Assembly (NCBI GenBank): GCA_018823125.1
Contig: JAHJIW010000001.1
Location: forward strand, 1 to 64,000
DNA length: 64,000 bases
From: Candidatus Margulisiibacteriota bacterium
GTDB taxonomy: Bacteria > Margulisbacteria > WOR-1 > JAHJIW01
Reading direction: 5' to 3'
The position numbers and the translations under genes are program-made. Under the pieces are notes generated by a model, which was given only the letters and a program-made list of their open reading frames with translations, was not told where the DNA came from and searched no databases. Shown here one piece after another: positions 19,322 to 64,000 of this stretch; position 1 is the stretch's first letter, and each line of letters opens with the position of its first letter.

Positions 19322-22300
19322 ATGATCAAGCGAATCAAAGTTATTCTTTTTGTTTTGTTTCTGCTGGGAGTAATGCTGCCTGCTTTTGCCGCTATTAATA
19401 ATTGGACCTTTACCACCGCTTCAAATTACACTTATGATTCAGATAAAATTGAGGTTTCTGGGGGAGCCGCACAATTAAAAAGCGTATTTTTTGATCCAAG
19501 CTGGCAATATAAAAGAGCGATCACGGTTTATAACACCACTAACTATAATGACCTCAGCGAATATCAGATCGAAATTAATATTGATAGCTCGGATACCACT
19601 TTTTGGGCAAACGTAAAGTCAGACGGGGGAGACATAAGATTTACGGATGCAGACGGAACGACTTTGCTGGATTATTATATAGATTCTTTTGATTACGCGG
19701 GGCAAAGCACACGCATTTGGGTAAAAGTACCAACCATTAATGCCGCATCTACTCATGCTATATATATGTTTTATGGCAATGCGGTTGCAACTTCAACTAG
19801 TAGCATTGAAGCTACGTTTAGTTATTCAGATCTAAGAACTGTAGGTTATGTTGTAAGCTCAATTGTAGCGGCCAGTAACCTGGATGTAATAAGTTTAGCG
19901 GATGGCAATCAAATTTATAATGGAACCCAAATATTAAGTTTAAATGATCAGCAAACCGGGGCTTTTCCTGCAAGTCAACTTTCACAAGGAACTGCTATTC
20001 AAGCCCAAAAGCTTTTTTTTGGGGATTGCGACGCAAATACTACCGACACGATTACCCCGATTAGTTTTGCGGGAACCGAATTCTATTACTATTGCTATCG
20101 AAATGCCGATTATTTTCCGATGGTTTCTCCCTTTGGAACGGCAAATGTCACAATATATGAAAATGGGACTCCGGTGTGGAGTGGAACCGTGGATGAATCT
20201 GGAACGGTAGTTAATCAAAATATTACAAATTATGAGACAGTAAGAGTATCTAGCGATATCCCAATTTTGGTCCAACATTACGCAGATACCTATGATGCCG
20301 CATCGTTTTATCCGACTAATGCTGGTTACTTATATGGAGTTCAATCGCGTTATTTGACGGTGGGATCTGGCCCAAACGGAGCCAGTGTGAGCTGGGTGAA
20401 AAGTGATGGCACTACTAGTAGTAGTGTTTTGTCCTCATACGGTGGATTTTATAATCAGGATAGCGGGTCTTCTCAAGGCACCGGAAAAGCCTGGCGCTTC
20501 TCGTCAAATTTCCCAATTGGTGTGCAAAATTTAGCGGATGGGGACGGCGGGGAATCAGTTACTTTTTTACCTTATAAAGAATTGGGAACAGTTTTCGGGT
20601 CAGCTAATCAGGTTGAATATATTGCCATTGCTGCCCCGGAACCAAATACCACTTGTAGTCTTTATGACAATACCGGAGCTTTGGTTTCGCAAGAGGTCGG
20701 GGGATCGAGAGACGACGTCAACAAAATTCTCTTTTCTGGTTTAAGTTTAACTGGGGGATGGAAGCTGGTGTCTGCCCAGCCGATTTTTGCTTATTACGAA
20801 AATCGTTCGAAAAGTGACGAAACTAATTTATGGTCTTATAAGCAAATGCGTCAGTTTACTTATCCGACCCCAACCGTTGAAGTAGGCACCGTAAATATCA
20901 GTTATCCAACCGATAATCCTACGGTTCAACCGATTGGTTCTACTTATCAGAATTTTACTAGTCTAACCACATTTGAAGAAACCGCTACCAAAAATGGGGG
21001 AGAGATTAAATATATTTTATCCAATGATGCTGGATCCAGCTGGCTTTACTGGAACAGTGGTAATGCGGCATGGGAAACCAGTGATGGAACTTATAATCAA
21101 TCAAATACCGCTGCGGTAGCGCATGCTAATATTTTATCTTTTCCGGTAGGGAGTGGTCAGTTTTTATTTAAAGCCTTCTTGCATTCGAATGGATCTCAAT
21201 TAGTGCAATTGGATAATATTTCGTTAGGCTATGGAATTTCGCCTGGGGTCAGCGAAGTTGTACATTTAACTGCGCAGCCCAATGCCGGATCAACTACCGT
21301 ATCGCTCAAAGCTTCTTTTGACGAAGCCTTTCCGGATCAAAATAACTTTTTTGTAGCGCTTAACGGGGGAGAATATGGGTTGGCAACAGTGGGGCAAAGT
21401 AATACTGCTGATCCAGCCACCCAGGAAACCCAGGCGGGAGCTACTTTAGATGGTAATGATTATATAAGCAAGATTAAATGTGTATCTACTAATGATTTTA
21501 GCACGGTGATTACTAACGAAAGTACTTCTCCGCACATTGCTTATAAATACGCAAAACCTTATACTCCAGCGGCGCCAACGATTAGTAGCCCAACTAGCAC
21601 CACGGTTAATATTGCGGTGCAAAAGAATGCAAGTGAAGTATCGGGCTTAGAGTATGCGATTTACGAAGTTTCACAAAATAAATATGTGCAAAGTGATGGT
21701 GCTTTAGGGTTTGTTGCGGCGTGGGCCACACGGGAAGCCTGGGGTACGGTGACGGTCACTGGTTTAGCTCCCCCGGTTACAAATTATGCTTTTAAAACCA
21801 AGTCGCGCAATTCTTCGGACGTTGCAAATCAAGACACTTCACAAAGTGAATTGAGTAACGGCGCAACTGCCGAGGCCGAAGCCGGGGCTCCGCAAATAAC
21901 ATCGCGTTCGCCGTCAGATAAAGCTTCTAACGTTGGAACAGAAGAAGTGATTTCCATTGAGTTTAATCGGGATATGAGTTTTAATTCGGTTGAGAATGCG
22001 TTTTATCTGATAGCTACTTATGATAATTTAGGTAATAGTTTAACGGTAACGACCGAAAGCGGACTGTTATTATGGACTGATAACCGAACGGTTTCGTTTG
22101 AAGGTATTCAGGCTTTTAATCAGGGATATACTTATCAACTGACAATTTCTAAAGAAGCGCAGGATTATGCGGGGACCTCTATGGATGCTTCAGATACCTG
22201 GTCCTTCCGTATCATTTTGAATCATGCCGTTCAAAATGATCTATATAGTTTTGATCGCATGGCCCGGATTGCTCTGCCGGCGTCCGCACTGGCCAGAGAC

Positions 22301-22981
22301 GGATGGATTACTTTTAATCGCGATCCAATTAATAATCCAACCGTGGTAGATCCTAATGCCATACTTTTAGCCAATGGAAAGATAGCGGCCGAAGGTGATC
22401 CCTTTTATTATCCGATAACTACCTCGATAACCGAATTTAATGCATATGACAGTACCGGGGCGCGGGTAACCAGTAATTTCACTGCTCCGATAACCCTTTA
22501 TTTATACTACACGGATGCCGATGATGATGGTACGGTGGACGGTACTTCGCCGGCTTTAAATGAAGATGGAATACAGATTTACCGCTTGGATGAAACCAAT
22601 AGCTTGTGGGTAAGGGTTCCGGGAGCCACGGTTAATACAACTTTAAATTATGTATCCATTCCGGTTGAACATTTATCAGTTTATACCTTAATGGCGGCGC
22701 CGGTTACTAATCTTTCCAATGCCTATGCTTATCCGGTTCCTTTTATCCCAAATGACGGGCATACGCAGATCACATTTACAAACCTGGCCTCACAGTGTAC
22801 CATTAGAATTTTCGATGTCAGTGGAGATTTGGTCGCGGTATTAAATGAAAATGATGGGGATGCGCAGTACAATTGGAACGTTACCAACGCTGCTGGATCA
22901 AATCTGGCATCGGGAGTATATTTTTATCATATCAAAAGTGCGGAGGATGACAAATCCGGAAAGATCATGGTGATCAGATGA
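19322..22981 (+). CDS. large secreted protein with DUF2341, Ig-like and C-terminal FlgD-like sorting domain
   Basis: Exported surface protein of 1219 aa. Signal peptide about 1-24 (ending AFA). A DUF2341 module spans about 55-150 (WQYKRAITVYN, then HAIYMFYGNA). A long region of beta repeats follows. A SbsA/Big_5-type Ig domain sits at about 855-965 (SPSDKASNVGTEEVISIEFN). The C-terminal 85 residues (AYPVPFIPND, then ASGVYFYHI) form a FlgD/T9SS type A-like domain. Such domains act as outer-membrane export tags in Bacteroidota; a similar role here is inference. The stop overlaps the start of a PorV-like barrel gene (ATGA), so the two are translationally coupled. Confidence 0.85.
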   Translation: MIKRIKVILFVLFLLGVMLPAFAAINNWTFTTASNYTYDSDKIEVSGGAAQLKSVFFDPSWQYKRAITVYNTTNYNDLSEYQIEINIDSSDTTFWANVKSDGGDIRFTDADGTTLLDYYIDSFDYAGQSTRIWVKVPTINAASTHAIYMFYGNAVATSTSSIEATFSYSDLRTVGYVVSSIVAASNLDVISLADGNQIYNGTQILSLNDQQTGAFPASQLSQGTAIQAQKLFFGDCDANTTDTITPISFAGTEFYYYCYRNADYFPMVSPFGTANVTIYENGTPVWSGTVDESGTVVNQNITNYETVRVSSDIPILVQHYADTYDAASFYPTNAGYLYGVQSRYLTVGSGPNGASVSWVKSDGTTSSSVLSSYGGFYNQDSGSSQGTGKAWRFSSNFPIGVQNLADGDGGESVTFLPYKELGTVFGSANQVEYIAIAAPEPNTTCSLYDNTGALVSQEVGGSRDDVNKILFSGLSLTGGWKLVSAQPIFAYYENRSKSDETNLWSYKQMRQFTYPTPTVEVGTVNISYPTDNPTVQPIGSTYQNFTSLTTFEETATKNGGEIKYILSNDAGSSWLYWNSGNAAWETSDGTYNQSNTAAVAHANILSFPVGSGQFLFKAFLHSNGSQLVQLDNISLGYGISPGVSEVVHLTAQPNAGSTTVSLKASFDEAFPDQNNFFVALNGGEYGLATVGQSNTADPATQETQAGATLDGNDYISKIKCVSTNDFSTVITNESTSPHIAYKYAKPYTPAAPTISSPTSTTVNIAVQKNASEVSGLEYAIYEVSQNKYVQSDGALGFVAAWATREAWGTVTVTGLAPPVTNYAFKTKSRNSSDVANQDTSQSELSNGATAEAEAGAPQITSRSPSDKASNVGTEEVISIEFNRDMSFNSVENAFYLIATYDNLGNSLTVTTESGLLLWTDNRTVSFEGIQAFNQGYTYQLTISKEAQDYAGTSMDASDTWSFRIILNHAVQNDLYSFDRMARIALPASALARDGWITFNRDPINNPTVVDPNAILLANGKIAAEGDPFYYPITTSITEFNAYDSTGARVTSNFTAPITLYLYYTDADDDGTVDGTSPALNEDGIQIYRLDETNSLWVRVPGATVNTTLNYVSIPVEHLSVYTLMAAPVTNLSNAYAYPVPFIPNDGHTQITFTNLASQCTIRIFDVSGDLVAVLNENDGDAQYNWNVTNAAGSNLASGVYFYHIKSAEDDKSGKIMVIR

Positions 22982-24234
22982 TTAAAAAAATATTGGTTTT
23001 AGTAATTTTGATATTATTTTTAGGGGCCGGTTCTGGGTTTGCAGCTACGGGTACGGTGGCCGGAAGCTTTTTAAAGATTGGGGTAGGCGGTCGTCCGGTA
23101 GCGATGGGAGAGGCCTATACCGCCCTGGCAGATGGAGTTGACGCGCCGTATTGGAATCCAGCGGGAATTGCTAACCAAGAAGTTTTAGAAGTGCTTTCGA
23201 TGCATGCGGACTGGTTTCAGGATACTTCTTTTCAATATATTGGGTTTGTATTTCCTCCGGTAGACTGGGGAGTATTTGGGGTCAGTTACAGCATGCTGAA
23301 CTATGGCGCCATTGCGGGCTACAGTGCCACCGGCAGCCGTGAAGCTGACGTAAATGCCGGAGACGCGGCCTTAAATGTAACCTGGGCTAAAGTTATTAAC
23401 GATAAATTGTCATTAGGACTTAACGCAAAATTTATTTCTGAAACTTTAGCTTCTTACAGTGCTTCCACTTTCGCTTTTGACCTGGGGGCTTTGTACAATT
23501 TAAATCCGGATTTGATCCTGGGCTTAAATTTTCAAAACCAGGGCGGATCTTTAACTTTTATCTCTGAGGCAAATCCGTTACCCAATAAAATTGCACTGGG
23601 AATTGCGGCTAAACGATTTATTTTCAAACCACTAACGGTTACTGCTGATTTTAATTTGCCAAATGACAGTGATATGTATCTTAATGTTGGTAGTGAATAT
23701 ACTTTTAATGACTTTTTAATCCTTCGTTTGGGTTACGCGCGGTCTCGCTACCAGGGCGGGTTAGGGTTTAGAGCAAAATATTTTGCTCTGGATTATGCTT
23801 ACGTTCCACACGAATATTTAGGGGCAACCCACCGCATCAGCTTAGCTTTGCAGTTTGGCATTACTACCGAAGACGAAATTAAAAAGCACTATGAACTGGG
23901 TACCGAATACTATAAAGAACAAAAGTATTTAGATGCGCTTTCTGAGTTTAAAGCCGTGCTGGAGCTGGATCCATTAAATAAAGACAGTCGTGACTATGTA
24001 GACCGCATTGTTGAAGAAATGCGCCAAAAAACCTTACTCGAAAAAGTTAAGGCCCTGCGGGAACAAAAAGCAAAGGCTCGTGAACTTTTAGATGAGGCGG
24101 TAATTGAATTTCAAAAGAAAAATTATGAAAAAGCTAAAGAATTAGTGGACCAATCGTTATATTATGCGCCGGATAATGAAAAGGCGCTGGAATTAAAAGA
24201 ACGCTTGAAAAAAGTGTTAAAAATTGAAAAATAA
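22978..24234 (+). CDS. PorV/PorQ-like outer-membrane barrel with C-terminal TPRs
   Basis: 418-aa exported protein. Signal peptide about 1-22. Residues 23-300 are a UPF0164/PorV-like barrel opening with FLKIGVGGRPVAMGEAYTA and YWNPAGIA, the hallmark of the family. The C-terminal 120 residues carry TPR-like helices (AKELVDQSLYYAPDNEKALEL). In T9SS bacteria PorV shuttles cargo bearing C-terminal sorting domains; coupling by ATGA overlap to a FlgD-tailed cargo gene suggests a similar partnership. The periplasmic TPR tail is an unusual addition. Confidence 0.82.
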   Translation: MIKKILVLVILILFLGAGSGFAATGTVAGSFLKIGVGGRPVAMGEAYTALADGVDAPYWNPAGIANQEVLEVLSMHADWFQDTSFQYIGFVFPPVDWGVFGVSYSMLNYGAIAGYSATGSREADVNAGDAALNVTWAKVINDKLSLGLNAKFISETLASYSASTFAFDLGALYNLNPDLILGLNFQNQGGSLTFISEANPLPNKIALGIAAKRFIFKPLTVTADFNLPNDSDMYLNVGSEYTFNDFLILRLGYARSRYQGGLGFRAKYFALDYAYVPHEYLGATHRISLALQFGITTEDEIKKHYELGTEYYKEQKYLDALSEFKAVLELDPLNKDSRDYVDRIVEEMRQKTLLEKVKALREQKAKARELLDEAVIEFQKKNYEKAKELVDQSLYYAPDNEKALELKERLKKVLKIEK

Positions 24235-46567: not shown

Positions 46568-48250
46568 ATGAAAAAAATCTTTTTTGGGTTTTTTCTTTTT
46601 CTGCTGGTTTTTAACTCCGCGGCATTGGCCTCGTCCATCGTTGATATTACCAAAATCGGAGTAGGCGCCCGTCCTTTAGGTCTAGCTAAGGCCCAAACTG
46701 CTTTGGTTTCTGATACCAGCTCAATTTTTATCAATCCGGCAGGGTTATCTGAGTTGGATCGCTTTACACTTTTAACCATGAATTCAAAACTGATGCAGGA
46801 TGTAGACTATTTAACCCTGGCTTTTTCGACTCCGGCGTGGGGCGGGACGGTGGGGTTTGCTTTTGTTTCAGCCGGGGTTTCTTCGATTCCGCTTTCAACC
46901 GTAAGCGCGGGTGGAACTCCAGAGGCTACCGGAGATTTTTCGAGTTTTGGATCTCAAGTTTTTGTTTTATCCTACGGCATCGATTACGGGGAGATTTCCA
47001 GTAATGATTTTTTGAAGCGGATGGAGTTGGGCGCCAGTTTAAAATATTTTATGCAAAATTTTTCCGGCGTCAGCTCTAGCTTATCCGGAGCCAACGGCAC
47101 CGGAATGGATATGGACTTAGGGATTAAGTACTATTTGAGCGATTGGGCCAAGATGGGGCTTACCATTCAAAATGTTTTACCATCTTCTTTGGGGGGGACT
47201 TTTACCTGGGCTGGCAGCGGCTTAAGCGAAGGTATTTCTTCGGTGATCAATACTGGGATCGGCTTTAAATTATGGGGAGAGGATGCCCCGTTTCAGGTTC
47301 AGGCGCAGGAATTGTTTATCGAATTTGATACCGAAATGTATTATTACGAAAAAAAGCAAAGCTTATGGCATGTGGGGATGGAATGGTGGCCGGTTGAAAT
47401 CCTGGCCCTCAGAATTGGCGTTGACCAACAAGAAGATCAGGTCGGCGGTGCGTATGGAGTACGCAATAATTTAACCACCGGAGTAGGGCTCAATTATGCG
47501 GGTTTTACTTTTGATTATGCCTATCATCAATTTGGCGGGGTCGAGGAAAATGCTTCTTACTTTTTCTCGATTGGTTACCTGGGAGAAGACCAGGTTGAAA
47601 TAGTTGAGCGTACTTTAAAGAAAAAAGGCCGCCGCCCCATAATTTTCACTGAAGTTTTACCGGCTCCGGCGGTTAAAACGTTTACCGATGTTCCTAATAA
47701 TTACTGGGCCCGTCCACCGATTGAATATTTGGCTACCTTAAAGATTTTTGATGGATTTCCGGATGGTACTTTTAAACCGAACGATCCGATTAACCGGGCA
47801 GAGATTGCCGTACTTTTAGTAAATGCCAAGGAACTTCCTTTGGTCAGGCCAACCGCCAGTATGTTTTCTGATGTTCCGCCAGGCCACTGGGCCGAAAGAC
47901 AAATTAAAGCCGCCGTGGATCGCGGATATATTTCCGGTTATCCATCAGGCAAATTTGAACCGTATCGGCAGATTACCCGCGCCGAAGGAGTGATCATATT
48001 ATCTAAATTTGCCGGATTAATTATCCCCAAAAAAGTTCCTGAAAAACCTTTTCCGGATATTGGAAGAAATCACTGGGCCGCTAAAGAAATTTACGCGGCA
48101 AAAGTAGGGGGACTGCTGGAGTATCTGGGCGGCAAAAACTTTGAACCGGATAAAAAGCTCACTCGTGCTGAGGTAGCAGAAATCATCTCCAAAACCCGCT
48201 TCGGCAAAGAAAAGATCAAAGAATTTCTGATGTATAAGAAGGAAAGTTAA
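46568..48250 (+). CDS. outer-membrane barrel protein with three C-terminal SLH domains
   Basis: 560-aa exported protein. Signal peptide 1-21. Residues 22-335 are a UPF0164/PorV-like barrel ([30 protein letters not shown]). Three SLH repeats follow at about 370-420, 430-485 and 495-545 ([54 protein letters not shown]). SLH domains bind peptidoglycan-linked polymer, so this protein likely staples the outer membrane to the wall. It is a paralogue of the 60520 gene. No SD is evident; see the overlapping -10 boxes. Confidence 0.88.
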
Positions 48251-53390: not shown

Positions 53391-55094
53391 ATGGGTAATT
53401 CAGGAATGCCATCTCTTCAAGGAATTAAGAGCGGTGTTGTAAATTTATATAACAATGGAAAACAGGAACTAGAAAATGTGTTTGAGGCCGGAATCGAATT
53501 AGCGGAAAACGTTGGAGAATATTTAGCGCCGGCCGCTCAAGTTTTAGTTGAAGTTGTTAATGATGGTTTTACTCCGGATGGTCCGAAAGCTCATTTGGAT
53601 GGAGTATCCATCGCAGCCGGTTGCGCAGATGAAACTGCAATTTTACCGGAAACCCAAGTTCTTTTTGAAGAAGGGGTTATGATCACCGATAAACTTGAAA
53701 ACACCGGAACTCAAATTATCTTAACCTTAGCAACTAATGAATTTTACTTTTCTGACCCACAAGACCTTTCGATTGTTTTTGGAACTCAGCTTACCGATAT
53801 GAGTGAATTAAATAAAGCAGTAGCTTTAGCCGACTTAGCTGATCAGGCTCCGGGAATCAGCGCCGAAACCTATGCTGATCTGCAAGCAGTTGCGGACGCA
53901 AATGATGGTAATGTAACAGCTTTAGATCTTTTATATATTAAAGCTAACGATGCTATCCCTAAATATTATGATGAATTTTTAGCGGCGCTCGAGAGCGGAG
54001 CATTAGAAGATGCCGAAGGCAATACCATTATTACCGGAACGGATTTATACAAAGCGATTGCTCCGATTTTGGGTAATATATTTACCAAAGAAGATGGTTC
54101 CTTAATGACGCTTGAAGAAATAATGGCGGCATATGGGGCGACTGGAGAAGCATTTGTTGACTTTGTTGAAGTAGAACAAATGGTTAATATTGTGAGCAAT
54201 CTAGTTGATAATGTTTTAGCCGGCGGAATTCCGGTAGCATTAAAACGACATGACGACGAAAGTGTTGAATGGGGTGGTGGACAGTATGTTTTTAGAGTTT
54301 ATGAAAATGATGCTCCGGTTGATCCAGCAGCTTGGGTTGCTCCGCAGCAATTCGAAATTGTAGATAACGTTGGATCGATTGCTCCGGTTTATCAGATTAA
54401 TTATAGTCAATTAGAAGATGCAGTAGCGGCAGATGAAGATCCAGAAAATGATGATCTTTCGGCTTATGCAGACTTTAAGACTGAGGGTGGCAAACTTTAT
54501 TTCATTATTCAGGATGGTTTAGACCCGATTTATTCAGTTGTAAGTACAGAAGGAGAACTTTCTGGATTAACCTTGCCGGTTGAAGCAGTTAATGCAGGAG
54601 TTAACGGATTAGATCCAGTTATGAAGTATGTATCCGTATTGCGCGCCGAAAATGAAACTGAAACGGATGTAACTTATACTTATCTTTATGATTTTGCAGA
54701 TGATGGTACTTTAGCATTTACTAATGTTTCTGTATCAGATCTTCACTTCGTTTCAGATGAAACGGTAACCACGGTTGAAGTAGTAGATGCTTTTGATCCA
54801 TTTGCTGGATTTAGCACTCCATTAACCTTAGTAAACTTTAGCGCTGGTTTTTATTCTGAAATTTATCCAGATGGATCGCAAACTGAAACATTTACTCTTG
54901 GCAGTTCAATTGGCGATTGGGATGCTAATCAAGCTACCATTAATATCGGATCTAAATTTGCCGGATACCCAGTTACTGGAAAAAATGGAACTTTTGCGAT
55001 TCAAGCTAGTTTAGAAAGCACTGAACCAGAAATATTATCGAAAACGTATCTTAGAGCAGAAGCAAATTCGACAGCTCCAGCATCTGATGAATAA
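53391..55094 (+). CDS. large acidic protein without Sec signal, sigma-28-type promoter
   Basis: 567 aa, not recognised. The N-terminal 45 residues are an amphipathic helix (LYNNGKQELENVFEAGIEL), with no signal peptide. The rest is acidic, Ala/Val-rich and beta-prone, resembling an extracellular or structural protein: helix-rich to about 290, then strands (GGGQYVFRVYENDAPVDP). SD AGGAGG. If it reaches the surface it would need a non-Sec route; this is inference. The next gene is 23 bp downstream with its own SD and may be co-transcribed. Confidence 0.7.
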   Translation: MGNSGMPSLQGIKSGVVNLYNNGKQELENVFEAGIELAENVGEYLAPAAQVLVEVVNDGFTPDGPKAHLDGVSIAAGCADETAILPETQVLFEEGVMITDKLENTGTQIILTLATNEFYFSDPQDLSIVFGTQLTDMSELNKAVALADLADQAPGISAETYADLQAVADANDGNVTALDLLYIKANDAIPKYYDEFLAALESGALEDAEGNTIITGTDLYKAIAPILGNIFTKEDGSLMTLEEIMAAYGATGEAFVDFVEVEQMVNIVSNLVDNVLAGGIPVALKRHDDESVEWGGGQYVFRVYENDAPVDPAAWVAPQQFEIVDNVGSIAPVYQINYSQLEDAVAADEDPENDDLSAYADFKTEGGKLYFIIQDGLDPIYSVVSTEGELSGLTLPVEAVNAGVNGLDPVMKYVSVLRAENETETDVTYTYLYDFADDGTLAFTNVSVSDLHFVSDETVTTVEVVDAFDPFAGFSTPLTLVNFSAGFYSEIYPDGSQTETFTLGSSIGDWDANQATINIGSKFAGYPVTGKNGTFAIQASLESTEPEILSKTYLRAEANSTAPASDE

Positions 55095-55117: not shown

Positions 55118-57694
55118 ATGATTAATTTTAATAACTTTGTAACTCGGTTGAAGGGGGCGAAAAAAGTAATTGCACTGCTTTTTGCAGGTTTATTGCTAAT
55201 CGCATTTTCAGTCAGCGCCCATGCGACATTAACTATTCCTGCTCAGGCCGCAGTTAGTGCGGACGGAAATAAATTAATCGTTCCTAGTCAGGCGACCGGT
55301 GACTATAAGATTGTGATTTATGATGTATCTAATCCAGCGTTACCTTCTACATTAGCAACCATTAATACTGCGGGTGCAGTATACGGGGTTGCAGTTAATC
55401 CTGCTGGTACTAAAGCTTATATCAGTATTTCTGGTAGTGGAGTAGGGGTTATTAATTTAGCTACTAATACACAAACCAATACCATTTCATTGCCTACTAA
55501 CTTTTTACGCAATATCGCATTTTCGCCGGATGGCGCCTATGCTTTTGTAGTAGATGTATTAGGTAAAGTTTATATCATCAATACAGCAACCGAAACGCTT
55601 GCTGACACCATCACAATTTCAGGTGGTGTTGGGGCTTACGGCGTAGCAGTTAAACCGGATGGAACCCGTTTAGCGGTTTCCAGACGTACTGCTTCGGGTG
55701 CTATTTACATTTATGATATTACCGATATTGCTAACCCGACCTATATAAAATCTATGAACGGGCTAGTTTATCCTACTTATCTTTTCTATGGTGAAGGAAC
55801 ACAGCTTGGTGGCGATCCTACCCACGTGTGGCTTTACGTAAAAAATAGGGAAGAATTAGCTACCGAAGAAGACGTTAAAATTTATGATTCTGCTGACGAT
55901 ACCTATACTCTTTCAGGAACGATTAAATTAGCGGACGAACATGGTTTTGATCGAAACTTTACTAATGATCCGATTAGCGGATACACTGGTTTGGCTTTAA
56001 GTGCCAACCGTCAAATGGCTTACGTAGCGGTATATAACAATACCGCATCAAAATCCCAAGTGTATCGTTTTTCTAGTGCCATTGGTAATGGGATTCTTGC
56101 TACGACTACTAATATCGTTAAAGAAAACTGTTCATATCCGGTTGATTCGATTGCCGGCGTGCCGGATGGCCGAACCATTTGGTTTGGTTATAGCTTAGGG
56201 TCTCATTACAACGGTCACGACGACGTTTATTATGGCAATAATAACTCTGGATTTACCCAAAATGCGCCTACTGCTCCGGAAATTACTGCCCCACAAGTAG
56301 GAGCAACCGATGTTACTGAAATGACCTGGAACGCAGGTTCGGATCAGGAAACCCCGGGGGCAAACTTAACTTATGATGTGGATTACATCTTAGCTGCTGA
56401 TATTAATACCAATAACTGGGTAGATTATAACCCTGGTGTTTCCGGAACCAGTGTTTCACTTGAAAATTTAGATGCTTTAACTTCATATTATTTGCGAATC
56501 AGAACCAGCGACGGTACCGATAACAGTGCTTTCGTCTACGTTGGTCCGTTTACCACCGGAGATACCGGTAGTGGCAGCGGCGAATGCCTGGTTATTGATA
56601 ATTTTGAAGGTGTAAATGTTCAAGATCCAGCTGGATATATTGCTTACAATTTAAACTATACGCTATTTGGAACCATGGTTGATCCGGATGATGCTACCAA
56701 TCGCATTATGCAGGTTGATGGTTATGCAGCTGGTGCAGATGGTTGGTGGTCTGGTGTTTTAGATACCCCAGTTCGTCCGATGGATATTTCAGCTTATGAT
56801 GCCATTGCCTTTGAATTAAAGGGTAATGGTTCAAGTGATATCGTGAAAATTCGTCTATTAGATGAAGACGGTGATATCTTTGAACTACCGGGTGGAGTTG
56901 TGCTAAGTACAGCTACCTGGCAAACCGTAGTCATTTTGATGGAAGGCATGGAAGATGCCCCCGTATATCAGGCCGGAGACGGCGTTTTCAGTGGAAATAT
57001 TCTGGCTTACGGTGTAAAATATGGTAGTAGCGATGCTTCCGGTGGGCCTCACTATTTTGACGACGTTAGAGCAATAAGTTCAACTGCAGAAGCAATACCT
57101 GGACCTACGGTAGATATTACGGTTCTTATGCAAGGTTTTTATGATGAAGGAGCCGGAACTTTGGCCGAAGCATATATTGATCTTGAGTTAAGAGATACCG
57201 ATATGTTAACGGTTTTACAGACGTTTTCAAATATTCCTTTGGATGATCAGGGTAACACGGTTTATAAACTTAATTATTTAGTTGGCGAAGGTCAAAATGA
57301 TGACTTTTATCTGGTGGTTAGACATTCAATTCCGTTAGCAGCATATTATAGTTCTAACCACTCACCGGTAATGATTGCTAACTCGATCAACCTTGAAGAT
57401 GGCGTAACAAAGACAATTAACTTAACTAATGGATCCGAAACCATGTACGGAACCGATGCGCTGGTTCACTCGAATATTACCGGTTTAGATTACATGCGAG
57501 CTGGTAATATCAATGGTGATCAATTTGTTGATATTTCAGACTTCATGCTCTGGGCACTGGCCAATGGTACTGAGCCTGGAAATCCTAACTGGTTAGTAGA
57601 TGCTAACTTAAATGGCGATGGTTTCGTTGATATTAATGACTTTATGTATTGGGCTGGAAATAATGGTACCGAAGTCCAGCTGCCGGAATATTAA
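55118..57694 (+). CDS. secreted beta-propeller / CBM-like / dockerin protein
   Basis: 858 aa. Signal peptide about 1-36 (ending AHA). Domains: a YVTN/WD-like seven-bladed propeller (about 40-385; repeated NPAGTKAYISI-like units), a fibronectin-III-like module (about 395-485), a CBM11/CIA30-like domain (about 490-650, VIDNFEGVNVQ), a beta module (about 660-790), and a C-terminal type I dockerin with two EF-like repeats, GNINGDQFVDISDFMLWA and DANLNGDGFVDINDFMYWA. The downstream gene encodes a cohesin domain, the expected partner. SD CGGAGGG. Confidence 0.85.
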   Translation: MINFNNFVTRLKGAKKVIALLFAGLLLIAFSVSAHATLTIPAQAAVSADGNKLIVPSQATGDYKIVIYDVSNPALPSTLATINTAGAVYGVAVNPAGTKAYISISGSGVGVINLATNTQTNTISLPTNFLRNIAFSPDGAYAFVVDVLGKVYIINTATETLADTITISGGVGAYGVAVKPDGTRLAVSRRTASGAIYIYDITDIANPTYIKSMNGLVYPTYLFYGEGTQLGGDPTHVWLYVKNREELATEEDVKIYDSADDTYTLSGTIKLADEHGFDRNFTNDPISGYTGLALSANRQMAYVAVYNNTASKSQVYRFSSAIGNGILATTTNIVKENCSYPVDSIAGVPDGRTIWFGYSLGSHYNGHDDVYYGNNNSGFTQNAPTAPEITAPQVGATDVTEMTWNAGSDQETPGANLTYDVDYILAADINTNNWVDYNPGVSGTSVSLENLDALTSYYLRIRTSDGTDNSAFVYVGPFTTGDTGSGSGECLVIDNFEGVNVQDPAGYIAYNLNYTLFGTMVDPDDATNRIMQVDGYAAGADGWWSGVLDTPVRPMDISAYDAIAFELKGNGSSDIVKIRLLDEDGDIFELPGGVVLSTATWQTVVILMEGMEDAPVYQAGDGVFSGNILAYGVKYGSSDASGGPHYFDDVRAISSTAEAIPGPTVDITVLMQGFYDEGAGTLAEAYIDLELRDTDMLTVLQTFSNIPLDDQGNTVYKLNYLVGEGQNDDFYLVVRHSIPLAAYYSSNHSPVMIANSINLEDGVTKTINLTNGSETMYGTDALVHSNITGLDYMRAGNINGDQFVDISDFMLWALANGTEPGNPNWLVDANLNGDGFVDINDFMYWAGNNGTEVQLPEY

Positions 57695-57719
57695 ACTTTA
57701 AGGTAAGGAGAGGCAAATT

Positions 57720-60503
57720 ATGATGAATATATTAAAAAGGATATCAAACCAAATTTTAAAGGGAGCAGTAGTGGGGTTACTGATGCTTTCAATTCTGGCT
57801 ATCGGTGCCACTGCCGCCCAGGCAGTCGTAGATGGCTACCTGGAAGTAGATCCTGAATTTGCGATACCGGGTGGGCAGGTCACCGTTATTGTACATCTTG
57901 ATCCGTCTGCATCCACCACACTCTACGGGATTGATGCTTATCTATACTATGATTCATCGGTGGTTGAGGTAGCTAGTATTGATAATACTTTAGATACCCA
58001 AGGACAATGGTTTTTAAATAACGTGGTTGATGATCCATCTAACGACCGCGTATCGTGTTCAAAAGGTGCGATGGCTGCCATGGGATTATATGGTTTAACG
58101 ATAAGTGCAGATTACGAACTGTATGCTGTTACTTTTAACGTATTACCCGGGGCTGCGATGGGACCCAATACAATCTATCTTGGCAGACCAGCTGACGGAG
58201 CTTTCTTTACGCTTTTAAACGAAGTTAACGCTAATGTTACCGGTACTGCTACCGATGGAGAGTTTGATGTAATTGGAGAAATTACCTCACTTGGCGACAA
58301 CGATGGTTATCAAGGTGATTTAGTAACAACTACTATCAATGGTGAAAACTTTACTGGTGCTAATGCGGTTGAATTTAGTGGATCGGGTGTCACTGGCACT
58401 ATTTCTAACGTAACTGCCTCTTCATGCGATGTTAGTATTTTGGTTGCTGGAAATGCTGCTTCCGGAGCTAGAAACGTTACCATTAAACAAGGAAGTACAG
58501 TTTTAGCTTATGGGGCTAGTAAGTTTACGGTCCAAAATGACTCAGTGGTTTTATCTCCCGACAACGGAATCGAGGGTAACACAATTGCGGTTTCTGTTGC
58601 AGGAACTGGGACACACTTTAATAGCAATTTGCCAGATGTAGTTTTTAGCGGATCCGGAGTAACTGTTACTGATAGACAGGCAACTAGCAATACTAGTATG
58701 ACGTTTAATGCGGTGATAGCTAATGGAGCTGCTGCTGGTAACCGTACGGTAACAATTACTGTAAGCGGCGTTCCCGGTGGCGGAACTGAAACTATGACTG
58801 ATACCTTTACTGTTGTCGCAGCTGCTGCCGGAACTGTAACCAATGTTAATCCTGGTTCGGCCTATCAAGGCGATGCTCTTGAAGATGTAGTTATTACCGG
58901 GACCGGATTTACGGGCGCGGTTTCTGTATCAATGGGTAGTGGAATTACAGCTTCTAACGTGACGGTTAACTCAGATACTGAGCTTACGGTTGATCTCGAA
59001 ATCGATGCATCAACTACAGCTGGTAACAAGAGTGTAAGTGTGAGCGACGGTAGTACAACTATCGCCAGCGGATCAAATCAATTTACGGTCAATGCGTCTT
59101 CAATTACGATTGATCCAGTTGAAGGTGATGCCGGTGAAACCGTTTCAGTTACTATTAACGGAACTGGTTCTCACTTTACGGCTAGTACACCTACCATAGA
59201 TGGTGGAACTGATATTACTGTAACTAACGTTTCAGTAACCGACGATGAAACTCTAACTGCTGATTTTGAATTAGATTCAGCAGCGTCTGGAGCGCAAACA
59301 ATCACAGTAACTACTACTGGCGTTCCTGGTGGTGGTGACGAAGAATTAGATGTTACATTTACAATTAACGAAGCTTCTGAAGAAGCTGATCCAGATATTA
59401 TTGTTATCGACGACTTCGAAGGTGGACACGTGACTACTTATACCACTTATGGTGATGGTAATAACGATCCAACCTTTACTCGTCAAGGTACTGAAGTTCA
59501 CGAAGGAAGCAATGCTGCTGAAATTCTGTATAACTTTAATGCTACTTCTATGGGTGACTGGGGCGGTGGAGTAGAAGCTCCGCTAAACGAAGTCATTGAT
59601 TTTGCGCATGCGCAATCCGTTAGCCTCATGGTTAAAGGTGACGGTTCAACCAATAGCGTAAGACTTGACCTGATTGAAGACAGCGCAACCGATGGTGAAA
59701 TTTATTCATCCCCGGCAATACCGTTGTCTGGTACAGATTGGACCGAGGTTTCTTTCAGTGTCGATGAGTTCACGATCAATGAGTATAGTCCGTCTGGAAA
59801 CGGAACTTTTGATCAAATCATTGAAGAGTACCGATTGGTGTACACAACTACTGGTACATCTGCGGCAAATCACTACGTTGATTATATTGTTGCCAGTGTT
59901 GATACGGTAGCCCCAACTAGTGATGCACCGGTTATTGACGCGGTAACTCCGAATGAAGCGGCGATTGCTACCATAATTACGATTAACGGTAGTAATTTCG
60001 GCGCTACGCAAAACGATTCTCAAGTCATATTCGATGATGCAATATCAACCTTGATTGTAGATGAAGCAATCCTCTGGAGTGATACGCTGATTCAAATTGC
60101 AGTTCCGGAAGGCTTAGAATCAAAAGCCTATGCCTTGAAAGTGTACAAACGAGATCTAACCTTAGGTGTGGATGCTTTAAGTAATGCAGTTGCCTTTACG
60201 GTTATTGCGATGGCTGACATAGTAAAAGCTTATCCAAATCCGTTTAACCCGCTAGTAGAATCCACTAGCATTCAAGTTAGCGTAACTTCAACGACTAACG
60301 TTGGCATATATATCTACGATATTACTGCGCGCCTGGTTTACAAAACTGTACAAACCTTGAACGCAGGAACAACCCTTATTCCATGGGACGGTAAGCTCTT
60401 CACCGGCGAATACTGCGGTGACGGTGTTTACCTGGTTCGCGTGGTAAACGAAGACTCAAAGACCCTATTGTCGAAGGGTAAGATTATAGCCATCAAGCGC
60501 TAA
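57720..60503 (+). CDS. secreted cohesin-domain protein with IPT/TIG repeats, CBM-like and FlgD-like domains
   Basis: 927 aa. Signal peptide about 1-36. Residues 38-182 look like a type I/II cohesin: IPGGQVTVIVHLDPS, then GIDAYLYYDSSVVEVASI and LYAVTFNVLPGA. Four IPT/TIG-like modules of about 90 aa follow (about 185-555), then a CBM11/CIA30-like domain (VIDDFEGGHV, about 560-720) similar to that in the upstream dockerin protein, one more IPT/TIG (about 735-830), and a C-terminal FlgD-like sorting domain (AYPNPFNPLV, about 840-927). SD AAGGAG. It could act as a scaffold receiving dockerin proteins. Confidence 0.85.
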   Translation: MMNILKRISNQILKGAVVGLLMLSILAIGATAAQAVVDGYLEVDPEFAIPGGQVTVIVHLDPSASTTLYGIDAYLYYDSSVVEVASIDNTLDTQGQWFLNNVVDDPSNDRVSCSKGAMAAMGLYGLTISADYELYAVTFNVLPGAAMGPNTIYLGRPADGAFFTLLNEVNANVTGTATDGEFDVIGEITSLGDNDGYQGDLVTTTINGENFTGANAVEFSGSGVTGTISNVTASSCDVSILVAGNAASGARNVTIKQGSTVLAYGASKFTVQNDSVVLSPDNGIEGNTIAVSVAGTGTHFNSNLPDVVFSGSGVTVTDRQATSNTSMTFNAVIANGAAAGNRTVTITVSGVPGGGTETMTDTFTVVAAAAGTVTNVNPGSAYQGDALEDVVITGTGFTGAVSVSMGSGITASNVTVNSDTELTVDLEIDASTTAGNKSVSVSDGSTTIASGSNQFTVNASSITIDPVEGDAGETVSVTINGTGSHFTASTPTIDGGTDITVTNVSVTDDETLTADFELDSAASGAQTITVTTTGVPGGGDEELDVTFTINEASEEADPDIIVIDDFEGGHVTTYTTYGDGNNDPTFTRQGTEVHEGSNAAEILYNFNATSMGDWGGGVEAPLNEVIDFAHAQSVSLMVKGDGSTNSVRLDLIEDSATDGEIYSSPAIPLSGTDWTEVSFSVDEFTINEYSPSGNGTFDQIIEEYRLVYTTTGTSAANHYVDYIVASVDTVAPTSDAPVIDAVTPNEAAIATIITINGSNFGATQNDSQVIFDDAISTLIVDEAILWSDTLIQIAVPEGLESKAYALKVYKRDLTLGVDALSNAVAFTVIAMADIVKAYPNPFNPLVESTSIQVSVTSTTNVGIYIYDITARLVYKTVQTLNAGTTLIPWDGKLFTGEYCGDGVYLVRVVNEDSKTLLSKGKIIAIKR

Positions 60504-60519
60504 TTAAGAAAAGGATAAG

Positions 60520-62454
60520 GTGAAAACTATGATAAATAAAAAATTGGTTTCAAAGGTAATTCTGACCCTGATCGTCTTAGTGGCGATGGCTGGTAGTGCA
60601 GTTGCTGATTCAGCAATTGCAGATCCGCTGTCCATTGCCGTAGGAGCCCGACCTTTAGGTATGGGTAAAGCCTACGTTGGAATAGCTGAAGATGCGGAAA
60701 CGCTCTTCATTAACCCGGCTGGTTTAGGAACTATTAAATCCGCCAAGCTAACCAGTATGTACACCTCTCTGATGGGAGACGTAAACTACATGATGGTTGG
60801 CGGTATTTATCCTTTAGAAGACGGCGCGGTTGGTTTAGGCTTAGCTACTGCCGGCGTTGCTGACATTCCATTATATGATAACACTGGAGCCTCTTTAGGC
60901 TCAGGTACCTGGAGCGAAAGTGTATTCTTAGCTTCTTACGGTACCGACATGTCAAAATTTGGCGGCAACGAAGATATTAAAATTGGAGCTTCCTTAAAAT
61001 ATTATTCCAGCGGTGGTACCGGTACTTCAACCGTTGCAGCCGGCGCCGGATCTGGTTTTGATATTGACTTAGGTGTTTTATACCAAGCTAAACCATGGTT
61101 AACCGTGGGGGCGGCTTTACAAAACGTATTTCCGGGTGGAGCCGTAGCCCGTAAAACTGGTCAATCCGATTTAATTGAATCAGTTTACAAAGTCGGAGCC
61201 AAAGTTAATGTTATGGGTAATGCTTCCGAATCACTCAATCCTTCTGATAATAAGTTAATTCTCTCTGCCGATCTTGATCTTAACGGTCAATCTGGCTTAG
61301 GTACTGGTACGCACATTGGTGCCGAATTCTGGCCGGTAGATGCTTTAGCACTGCGTTGCGGTATGGATAGCGATCCATCTGCTGCAGGGGTTAATTCAAA
61401 CATAACTGCTGGGTTAGGTGTTAGATATGGTGGTATGGAGTTTAACTATGCTTATCATCCATACAGTTCAATTGCGGAGGATACTACTCACTTTTTCTCC
61501 ATTGGTTATGTAGGGGAGGAAATTGCAGTAGTAGCTCCTCCAAACGTCACGATTTTAAGCCCGGATGATAAAACGATTACTAACAGCGAAACTATAAAAG
61601 TTGTGGGTATTGTTGAAAACGTATCTCCGAGCGATTTAAAGTTTGTGAGTGTTACCGTTAACGGCGTTAATGCTCCGATGGATGAAACCGGAAAGTTCGA
61701 ATTAAGTTATCAACTTGAAAAACTAGGAAAGAAACTCTTAGTGATCGAAGCTACCGGAGCATCCGGTCCGCTGGCTAGTTCTGATCGAAGAATCTTAAGA
61801 TTAGCATCCTTTGTGGACGTTGGTCGCGGATACTGGGCTAAGAATCCGATTGAAGAAAGTTCAACCGTAGGATTAGTTCAAGGATATCCGGACGGAACCT
61901 TCCGACCTGACAAAGCGTTAACCCGTGCCGAGCTGGCAACCTTGTTAGTTCGTGCGATGGAAGTTGATATGCATGCGGGTTATGGTAAACCGTTTAAGGA
62001 TGTTAAAGAAGACCACTGGGCCGTTGAGTATATCAGTGCCGCAAAACGCGCCGGTTATATGGCTGGTTACCCGGATGGATCTTTCAAACCCAACAAAAAG
62101 ATTACCAAGGTTGAAGGGGTAACGGTTATGGCTCGATTAGACCGTCTGCCGCTGCAAGCCTATTCAGCCGCGCCGTATTCTGATATAGGCAGCAAGCACT
62201 GGGCTGCCCGTTACGTACAAGCGGCCAAAGATGCCGGAATTCTGGATTATGTTAAAGGTTATGAGTTGAAAGCCAAAGATGACTTAACTCGTGCCGAAAC
62301 CATTGAGATGATGGCAAAAACTAAATTCGCCGGAGCTCAAATTCAGGAACTATTATCATGGTTCGTTGGATTTAAAAAAGAAGCTATTCCGGAGCGAAAA
62401 GAAACCACATCTCAAAAGTATAAAATCTTAACTTCTGGAGTTACACTCAACTAG
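60520..62454 (+). CDS. outer-membrane barrel protein with Ig-like and three SLH domains
   Basis: 644 aa. Signal peptide about 1-30. A UPF0164/PorV-like barrel (about 35-345; VGARPLGMGKAYVGIAEDA, LFINPAGLG), an Ig-like spacer (about 348-425; ILSPDDKTITNSETIKVVG), then three SLH repeats (about 430-480, 490-540, 550-600; YWAKNPIEESSTVG, HWAVEYISAAKRAGYMAGYP, HWAARYVQAAKDAG). It parallels the 46568 protein with an added spacer. The start may be GTG 60520 or ATG 60529. Its position after the cohesin gene suggests it anchors the complex or its export. Confidence 0.88.
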   Translation: MKTMINKKLVSKVILTLIVLVAMAGSAVADSAIADPLSIAVGARPLGMGKAYVGIAEDAETLFINPAGLGTIKSAKLTSMYTSLMGDVNYMMVGGIYPLEDGAVGLGLATAGVADIPLYDNTGASLGSGTWSESVFLASYGTDMSKFGGNEDIKIGASLKYYSSGGTGTSTVAAGAGSGFDIDLGVLYQAKPWLTVGAALQNVFPGGAVARKTGQSDLIESVYKVGAKVNVMGNASESLNPSDNKLILSADLDLNGQSGLGTGTHIGAEFWPVDALALRCGMDSDPSAAGVNSNITAGLGVRYGGMEFNYAYHPYSSIAEDTTHFFSIGYVGEEIAVVAPPNVTILSPDDKTITNSETIKVVGIVENVSPSDLKFVSVTVNGVNAPMDETGKFELSYQLEKLGKKLLVIEATGASGPLASSDRRILRLASFVDVGRGYWAKNPIEESSTVGLVQGYPDGTFRPDKALTRAELATLLVRAMEVDMHAGYGKPFKDVKEDHWAVEYISAAKRAGYMAGYPDGSFKPNKKITKVEGVTVMARLDRLPLQAYSAAPYSDIGSKHWAARYVQAAKDAGILDYVKGYELKAKDDLTRAETIEMMAKTKFAGAQIQELLSWFVGFKKEAIPERKETTSQKYKILTSGVTLN

Positions 62455-62576: not shown

Positions 62577-62608
62577 GAGACACGCGTGATGTTCCGTGTC
62601 TCTTTTTT
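62577..62608 (+). terminator. terminator-like hairpin at the 5' end of the 62623 transcript
   Basis: GAGACACG (62577-62584) pairs with CGTGTCTC (62595-62602), followed by six T, then the SD GGAG and ATG 62623. It begins about where transcription from the sigma-28-type promoter should start, so it may act as a 5' cap hairpin or attenuator rather than a plain terminator. Confidence 0.6.
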
Positions 62609-62622
62609 ATTGGAGAAAAATA

Positions 62623-64000
62623 ATGAGTGTGATTGATAAAGTAAAACTGATGATAAATAATACTGTTTCCAAAGCTGAAAATATTGGAACCAGAGCTAAA
62701 TATGTTATCCGCGAAAGCGCAAAACCTGCTGGTGAGCCAATTGTATTTAATGGTTTTAACTCGTTTATATTTGCATGCACGGAATATAAATTATCTAGTC
62801 TTGCTACCCCTGATGTTACCGTTCGACCCGAAGATGAAAATGATGTGGTTGCCGATTCAATTCAATCCTGTGATCCCGATGATGATTCCGACGTTTCCGG
62901 ATATAAGGTCAGAGAAGAATCCGTCACCCGATTTTTAGGTGAGGTAAGCTGGGGTGGAAAAGTAATTGATGGAACCTGGCAAGTGCATGATCAGGCTGGT
63001 TCCATGCAGGATGAAGCAGTTGCCGATTTTGAAGAATTGAATCCTGATGAAGATAACATGACCCGCAATAGTGAATCAATTTATACTTATCATGCCGGAA
63101 TTCCCGGACAATCAGAAAGAGTAAGTTTATCGGTTACAGTTGAAGGCCGCGGGGAAAAAGGTGCTACCGGTACAGAACAGGGCGAAGGTTTTGCTTGTGT
63201 TTACATTGATAGAAAGCCCGAGATTATCGATTTTTACTCCCCTGAAGAAGGCGAAGTCTTTTACAGCGACCAGGATGTTGATTTTATTGCTGCGGTTGAC
63301 GACCTGGAAGATTATCTGCCGACTTTAGCCATTACCTGGACTCTGGATGGAGAAGTAGTAAATGATGAAGCTCCGGATCTCAACGGCAACACTGCTTTTC
63401 AGTTGACTGATTTAGCTACCGGAGAGCACACGGTTTCGCTATGTGTAACTGACAGTATGGATCAAGAGGTTTGCGAAACCAGAACTTTTGAGTTTGTAAT
63501 TGTTGAAGAATGCAATGGCCTGGATGATGACGGAGACGGCATAATCCCGCAAAATGAAAACGACAATGACGGGGATGGGTGGATGCTGTGTGAGGGTGAT
63601 TGTGATGATAATAATGAAATTACCTTTCCTGGAGCACCTGAAATCTGCGATGGAGAAGATAATGATTGTGATGGCATAATTCCTGAAGATGAATTTGATA
63701 ATGATGGGGATGGATATTTAGCCTGTAACGATTGTAATGATGCCGATCCCGATATTTATCCTGGCGCTCCGGAACTTTGCGATGGAATTGATAATGACTG
63801 TGACGGAATAATTCCTGCGGATGAATTTGATAATGATGGTGATGGGTATTTAGCTTGCAACGAATGCGATGATGGAGATTATTTTATAAATCCTGGGATG
63901 CCGGAAGACTGGTGCAACGGAATTGATGATAACTGTGACGGTATTTATGAAACTGATGCGGACGGAGACGGATATTATGCTGAGTGCGATGATTGTGATG
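62623..64000 (+). CDS. MopE-like Cys/Asp-rich repeat protein (runs off the window)
   Basis: Open for 459 codons with no stop before the window edge. No Sec signal; the first 30 residues form an amphipathic helix (KVKLMINNTVSKAENIG). An Ig-like region follows (about 195-290; PEIIDFYSPEEGEVFYSDQD). From about 295 on, repeats of roughly 40 aa carry paired Cys in Asp/Asn-rich loops (CDGIDNDCDGIIP, DNDGDGYLACN), the putative metal-binding motif of MopE-type proteins, which probably bind calcium. SD GGAG. Confidence 0.82.
   Translation, partial: MSVIDKVKLMINNTVSKAENIGTRAKYVIRESAKPAGEPIVFNGFNSFIFACTEYKLSSLATPDVTVRPEDENDVVADSIQSCDPDDDSDVSGYKVREESVTRFLGEVSWGGKVIDGTWQVHDQAGSMQDEAVADFEELNPDEDNMTRNSESIYTYHAGIPGQSERVSLSVTVEGRGEKGATGTEQGEGFACVYIDRKPEIIDFYSPEEGEVFYSDQDVDFIAAVDDLEDYLPTLAITWTLDGEVVNDEAPDLNGNTAFQLTDLATGEHTVSLCVTDSMDQEVCETRTFEFVIVEECNGLDDDGDGIIPQNENDNDGDGWMLCEGDCDDNNEITFPGAPEICDGEDNDCDGIIPEDEFDNDGDGYLACNDCNDADPDIYPGAPELCDGIDNDCDGIIPADEFDNDGDGYLACNECDDGDYFINPGMPEDWCNGIDDNCDGIYETDADGDGYYAECDDCD

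Follow-up and report, generated by a model that had tools for sequence, protein, structure and literature searches.

Three adjacent genes in the window, i.e. the whole 64,000-nucleotide stretch of DNA that was analysed, encode proteins A, B and C. We found that the conserved core of this cassette is the pair formed by the last two: a gene whose product ends in a type IX secretion system (T9SS) type A-like sorting tail, followed directly by a gene for a PorV-family barrel. In protein C this barrel is fused to S-layer homology (SLH) repeats. On balance, we lean slightly towards regarding A, B and C as one surface assembly, in which B would be held by the wall-tethered barrel C and A would be docked onto B.

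Organization of the locus

A, B and C share one coding strand. A and B are separated by 25 bp and B and C by 16 bp, and all three proteins have Sec-type N-termini. The arrangement is thus operon-like. An earlier note on this DNA had described three adjoining genes with Sec signals and short gaps, and its coordinates agreed with ours. The host genome is 1.73 Mb long and 94% complete. Among named genomes, the closest relatives of protein C came from Candidatus Margulisiibacteriota, Saganbacteria and candidate division WOR-1. Comparisons were made in a class set of 31 genomes (Margulisiibacteriota, Saganbacteria/WOR-1) and a phylum set of 74 genomes.

55118..57694, + strand: protein A, 858 aa, secreted
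57473..57691, + strand: putative dockerin of A, with two Ca-binding loops, GNINGDQFVDISDF and ANLNGDGFVDINDF
57720..60503, + strand: protein B, 927 aa, secreted
57816..58289, + strand: cohesin of B (PF00963; AF2 model)
60222..60500, + strand: sorting tail of B (YPNPFNP ... GKIIAIKR; TIGR04183)
60520..62454, + strand: protein C, 644 aa
61795..62319, + strand: SLH trimer of C, with TRAE/TKVE/TRAE motifs
62596..64000, + strand, continuing beyond the window end: gene D, MopE-type metal-binding repeats

A gene similar to D also sits 3′ of a duplicate cassette in the same genome (L086:5189-6742), and the MopE-type protein downstream of the cassette showed no obvious signal peptide. On the 5′ side of A, the window encodes a 567-aa protein (53391-55094) for which neither Pfam nor NCBIfam gave a significant match.

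Sorting-tail genes are paired with PorV-family genes

From the N- to the C-terminus, protein B comprises a cohesin, IPT/TIG-like domains, CBM_11, TIG and the sorting tail. The tail matched TIGR04183 at residues 838-914 of 927 with 31.5 bits against a cut-off of 23 (37.0 bits in the genome search). It stayed below the cut-off of the Pfam model Por_Secre_tail, PF18962 (15 vs 27). The earlier note had called this tail FlgD-like. A relationship to FlgD_ig was retained, with similar scores in homologues. FlgD as the main label was set aside because TIGR04183 was over its cut-off, and the main label is now a T9SS type A sorting domain. FlgD-like tails are widespread in phyla without a T9SS, so the tail by itself is no proof of a T9SS.

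Protein C is composed of a PorV/PorQ-family outer-membrane barrel, a Glucodextran_B-like Ig domain (PF09136, 34.3 bits) and three SLH repeats. The barrel scored 108.6 bits with the PorV_fam model NF033709 (cut-off 90) and fell short of the cut-off for the T9SS PorV equivalog NF033710 (44.1 vs 250). The three SLH repeats together scored 113.8 bits with PF00395 (cut-off 20.8), which confirmed the barrel with three SLH repeats that had been proposed for checking with this model. The assignments of the barrel to PorV_fam and of the tail to TIGR04183 were both absent from the earlier note. By analogy with OmpM, the SLH repeats of C are expected on the periplasmic side, bound to the wall. CsaB is the enzyme that makes the usual, pyruvylated SLH ligand. 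A CsaB polysaccharide pyruvyl transferase was present in a class relative, G029 (L159:5235-6326; 284.8 bits vs a cut-off of 213.1), where it shares a small contig with a cohesin-like protein.

Among the 11 tails over the cut-off in this genome, six were directly followed on the same strand by a PorV_fam gene. For a genome of 1650 genes, the hypergeometric probability of this adjacency arising by chance is about 6e-10. With a more sensitive local tail profile, 10 of 15 tails were directly followed by a PorV gene, although this set was enriched because the regions had been fetched around PorV hits. The pairing extended to other genomes. A PorV-SLH homologue of C was present in all 31 class genomes. 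We took the 28 best C homologues (E below 1e-140), one of which had no upstream sequence. A tail gene lay directly upstream in 26 of the other 27, a figure read from coordinate lists, with 16 pairs outside this genome confirmed gene by gene; G025 had no tail among the matches listed. The gaps between tail genes and PorV genes were mostly -4 to 61 bp.

The window contains a second pair of this kind.

19322..22981, + strand: second tail-bearing cargo gene (DUF2341, Big_5, sorting tail)
22978..24234, + strand: PorV-family partner of the second cargo, with TPR instead of SLH and a 4-bp overlap with the cargo gene

This partner was the top PorV_fam match of the genome (169.5 bits). Most C-terminal parts of the PorV barrels consisted of SLH repeats; others had SLH plus LysM, LysM alone, TPR or nothing recognised. 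The PorV partner in C12 carried LysM and that in C15 had no recognised domain. One PorV-family barrel, at L094:7060-9675, had both SLH and LysM repeats, a predicted double peptidoglycan anchor. The window also encodes a PorV-like barrel with three SLH repeats (46568-48250) and no tail gene upstream.

It is also conceivable that C is mainly an OmpM-like outer-membrane tether, that B is an adhesin merely sharing its operon, and that its tail forms an Ig-like terminal domain and is no sorting signal. Diderm Terrabacteria do use SLH-porins as outer-membrane tethers (PMC10628300), several PorV-SLH genes here have no upstream tail gene (such as 46568-48250 in the window and C4:236792), and the tail also resembles FlgD_ig. 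However, a tether alone leaves the frequent adjacency of tail genes and PorV genes unexplained. It also leaves unexplained the pairs whose PorV protein has no SLH (TPR in the second pair of the window, LysM in C12, none in C15). We consider this interpretation fairly unlikely.

Cohesin and dockerin of the cassette

The earlier note had proposed a cohesin-like domain at the N-terminus of B. PF00963 scored 26.7 bits there (cut-off 24.1), and the genome-wide count suggested along with this search was one, the cohesin of B itself. An AlphaFold2 model of residues 33-190 was of moderate confidence (pLDDT 66, pTM 0.67). The best 50 PDB matches found for it by Foldseek were all cohesins (best E 7e-7, TM about 0.5-0.65). 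Searching the PDB directly with the B sequence gave no matches, and a single-sequence scan of the genome contigs with B gave no relatives.

Protein A, which has no sorting tail, is predicted to contain a beta-propeller (about residues 37-380), an fn3-like domain (379-475), a CBM11-like module (481-640) and an X-like module with a dockerin (641-858). The propeller, CBM11-like and TIG modules described earlier for these proteins were recovered: CBM_11 and TIG in B were both over their cut-offs, and CBM_11 in A was just under (25.6 vs 27). Models of glycoside hydrolases gave no match in any of the three proteins, again as had been described.

The two Ca-binding loops at the C-terminus of A, read as a dockerin-type pair in the earlier note, are both in dockerin register (N-x-N-x-D-x-x-V-D-x-x-D, twice). 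The module preceding them is X-like or Ig-like. A profile of the dockerin module with this preceding domain (A2, built from three sequences) ranked solved dockerins first in the PDB (2y3n_B, E 8.6e-8) and also matched 5lxv_B, 2b59_B and 3kcp. The Dockerin type I model PF00404 scored 14.3 bits, below its cut-off of 22.9. Thus, the Pfam test that had been suggested for the dockerin would have failed if used alone. Judged by its loops and profile matches, the C-terminus of A appears to be a dockerin in the broad sense.

In the phylum set, the dockerin module (profile with preceding domain) was found in four of the 74 genomes. In all four, the gene directly 3′ of the dockerin gene began with a cohesin or cohesin-like domain. 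PF00963 was over the cut-off in two of the 74 (the window genome and G019) in the genome searches; scanned whole, the G019 protein scored 21.2, just below the cut-off. The cohesin-like domains of G016 and G020 had no Pfam support, and their assignment rests on position and on homology of the remaining protein. In G016, G019 and G020, the dockerin, the cohesin and a separate adjacent tail gene form one orthologous operon, so the four loci represent two independent dockerin/cohesin settings. In the window locus, cohesin and tail are fused in one protein. Cohesin-like relatives fused to a tail were also seen in G007 and G013, and cohesin-like homologues without an adjacent dockerin in G007 (mutS upstream) and in G027 and G029 (purB-like gene upstream).

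In several genomes, propeller protein A is kept 5′ of B. Elsewhere, cassettes have a different kind of tandem repeat at the end of A and a different domain at the start of B. Relative to these, the C-terminus of A and the N-terminus of B seem to have been exchanged together, which is suggestive only and represents one case. Because PorV-SLH proteins were present in 31 of 31 class genomes and the dockerin module in only four genomes of the phylum, the cohesin and dockerin appear, from these distributions, to be a rare add-on that is dispensable to the anchor.

The cohesin and dockerin might also be vestigial or have other partners, with A released or held otherwise. The domains are divergent, PF00404 was below its cut-off, and some cohesin-like homologues have no neighbouring dockerin. 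Yet both Ca loops retain the ligand pattern, and the order of dockerin before cohesin is retained in members of four families. We regard a vestigial pair as unlikely. A classical minimal cellulosome, with B as the scaffoldin and A as a cellulosomal subunit, is very improbable. Cohesin, dockerin and CBM_11 are all present, but there is a single cohesin, A-C contain no glycoside hydrolase, SLH is not on the cohesin protein and Pfam cohesin was found in only two of the 74 phylum genomes. This candidate was rejected as contradicted by the gene content, including the cohesin and dockerin counts of class and phylum.

The cohesin-bearing scaffoldin of Gram-positive cellulosomes itself carries the SLH. 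Here SLH is on the PorV-family barrel, whose conserved partner is the sorting tail and not the cohesin. The cellulosome logic that the earlier note had assigned to the anchor was therefore not upheld. Other parts of its overall reading were retained: a non-cellulolytic, surface-anchored system of an uncultured diderm, in which the pairing of cohesin and dockerin is plausible.

Proposed assembly

From the gene content and domain order, we infer that the single surface assembly favoured above would work as follows. C would be an outer-membrane barrel of the PorV family, with its C-terminal SLH trimer in the periplasm, where it would bind the cell wall. B would pass the outer membrane and be recognised through its C-terminal sorting tail, which would contact the barrel. 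Its cognate barrel C would then keep B on the outer face, possibly in the way that PorV acts with type A tails and SprF-like barrels with type B tails in Bacteroidota. A, having no tail, would use its dockerin to bind the cohesin at the far end of B, and its propeller and CBM11-like module would be displayed via B. A role in adhesion or in glycan/matrix binding is likely, to judge from the domains, because only binding modules were found.

Giant barrels and a possible export pathway

Giant outer-membrane barrels of two families, of about 1000 and 1350 aa, also occur throughout the class (L105:4527-7517, L084:6843-11141 and their homologues). Of the 31 class genomes, 30 had a match to the SprA model. 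These matches were about 100 positions long, lay almost always at model positions about 584-717 and stayed far below the curated threshold, the best at 40.6 vs 200. The family of about 1000 aa was predicted to form a giant barrel. SprA (8gl8) was its third-ranked PDB match (E 1.2e-6, TM about 0.25). The first was SlpA, and BtuB and LptD also matched, with TM again about 0.25. Profiles of the SprA-like families gave no matches in the PDB. In three genomes, a PorV gene was directly 5′ of the gene for the barrel of about 1000 aa. The gene for the larger barrel adjoins fatty-acid synthesis genes and a convergent tail-bearing gene, which encodes a subtilase in this genome.

The resemblance of the giant barrel to SprA is suggestive only. 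An extension of the assembly proposed above is that the class has a genuine divergent T9SS, in which the barrel of about 1000 or 1350 aa is the translocon and many dedicated PorV proteins are shuttles. The SprA-model matches in 30 genomes, the giant barrel with SprA at rank 3 and the adjacent PorV genes are in its favour. However, the model scores are far below the cut-off, the TM value is about 0.25, SlpA ranks first, and BtuB and LptD match as well. We hold such a system to be rather doubtful. A T9SS-like export and sorting pathway in Margulisiibacteriota is possible but tentative. In it, each cargo would have its own PorV-family receptor fused to an SLH or LysM peptidoglycan anchor, and dockerin-cohesin would be an optional outer layer. 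If this pathway were true, cargo display and outer-membrane tethering would be one device.

Comparison with known systems

In the literature, the T9SS is said to be restricted to Bacteroidota (PMC12618676) or to the Fibrobacteres-Bacteroidetes-Chlorobi superphylum (PMC11205867), and SLH-porin tethers are described as a trait of Terrabacteria (PMC10628300). In the literature that we searched, with most subscription journals outside its scope, we found no paper combining PorV, S-layer homology and type IX secretion, and none on Margulisbacteria with type IX secretion. The present cassette combines the two: a T9SS-type receptor barrel and an SLH tether are united in one protein family, whose members are coupled to proteins with sorting tails throughout a class that is related to Cyanobacteria. 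This makes it possible to test how surface display by means of a tail arose and what its minimal form is, and the cohesin-dockerin joint would gain a role outside cellulose degradation.

In the T9SS, the PorV shuttle takes over substrates with type A tails, and those of type B go to an SprF-like barrel whose gene follows immediately. The position of a shuttle-barrel gene immediately 3′ of a substrate gene marks the two as a functional pair in Flavobacterium (PMC12618676). The pairs of type B CTD and PorP/SprF-like proteins in Flavobacterium johnsoniae resemble those described here in having a C-terminal sorting domain and a dedicated barrel encoded directly downstream (PMC12618676, PMC9143113). 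In contrast, the pairs of Margulisiibacteriota have a type A-like tail (TIGR04183) and a PorV-family barrel that is often fused to SLH.

OmpM and the SLH-porins (PMC10628300) likewise fuse an outer-membrane barrel to wall-tethering SLH with TRAE-type motifs. In OmpM, however, SLH is N-terminal and the porin barrel C-terminal. Protein C has the reverse order, as well as a Glucodextran_B-like linker and a tailed cargo partner.

Non-cellulosomal cohesin/dockerin proteins are known, e.g. from ANME archaea (PMC9012536), and Peer et al. 2009 is also cited for such proteins. Like the proteins studied here, they are not involved in cellulose degradation and sometimes carry S-layer domains, whereas the present pair lies within a tail/PorV-SLH cassette of a diderm bacterium. 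Finally, the locus shares cohesin, dockerin, SLH and CBM modules with cellulosomes that have an SLH-anchored scaffoldin, but it has no enzymes and a single cohesin, and its SLH repeats are on a membrane barrel.
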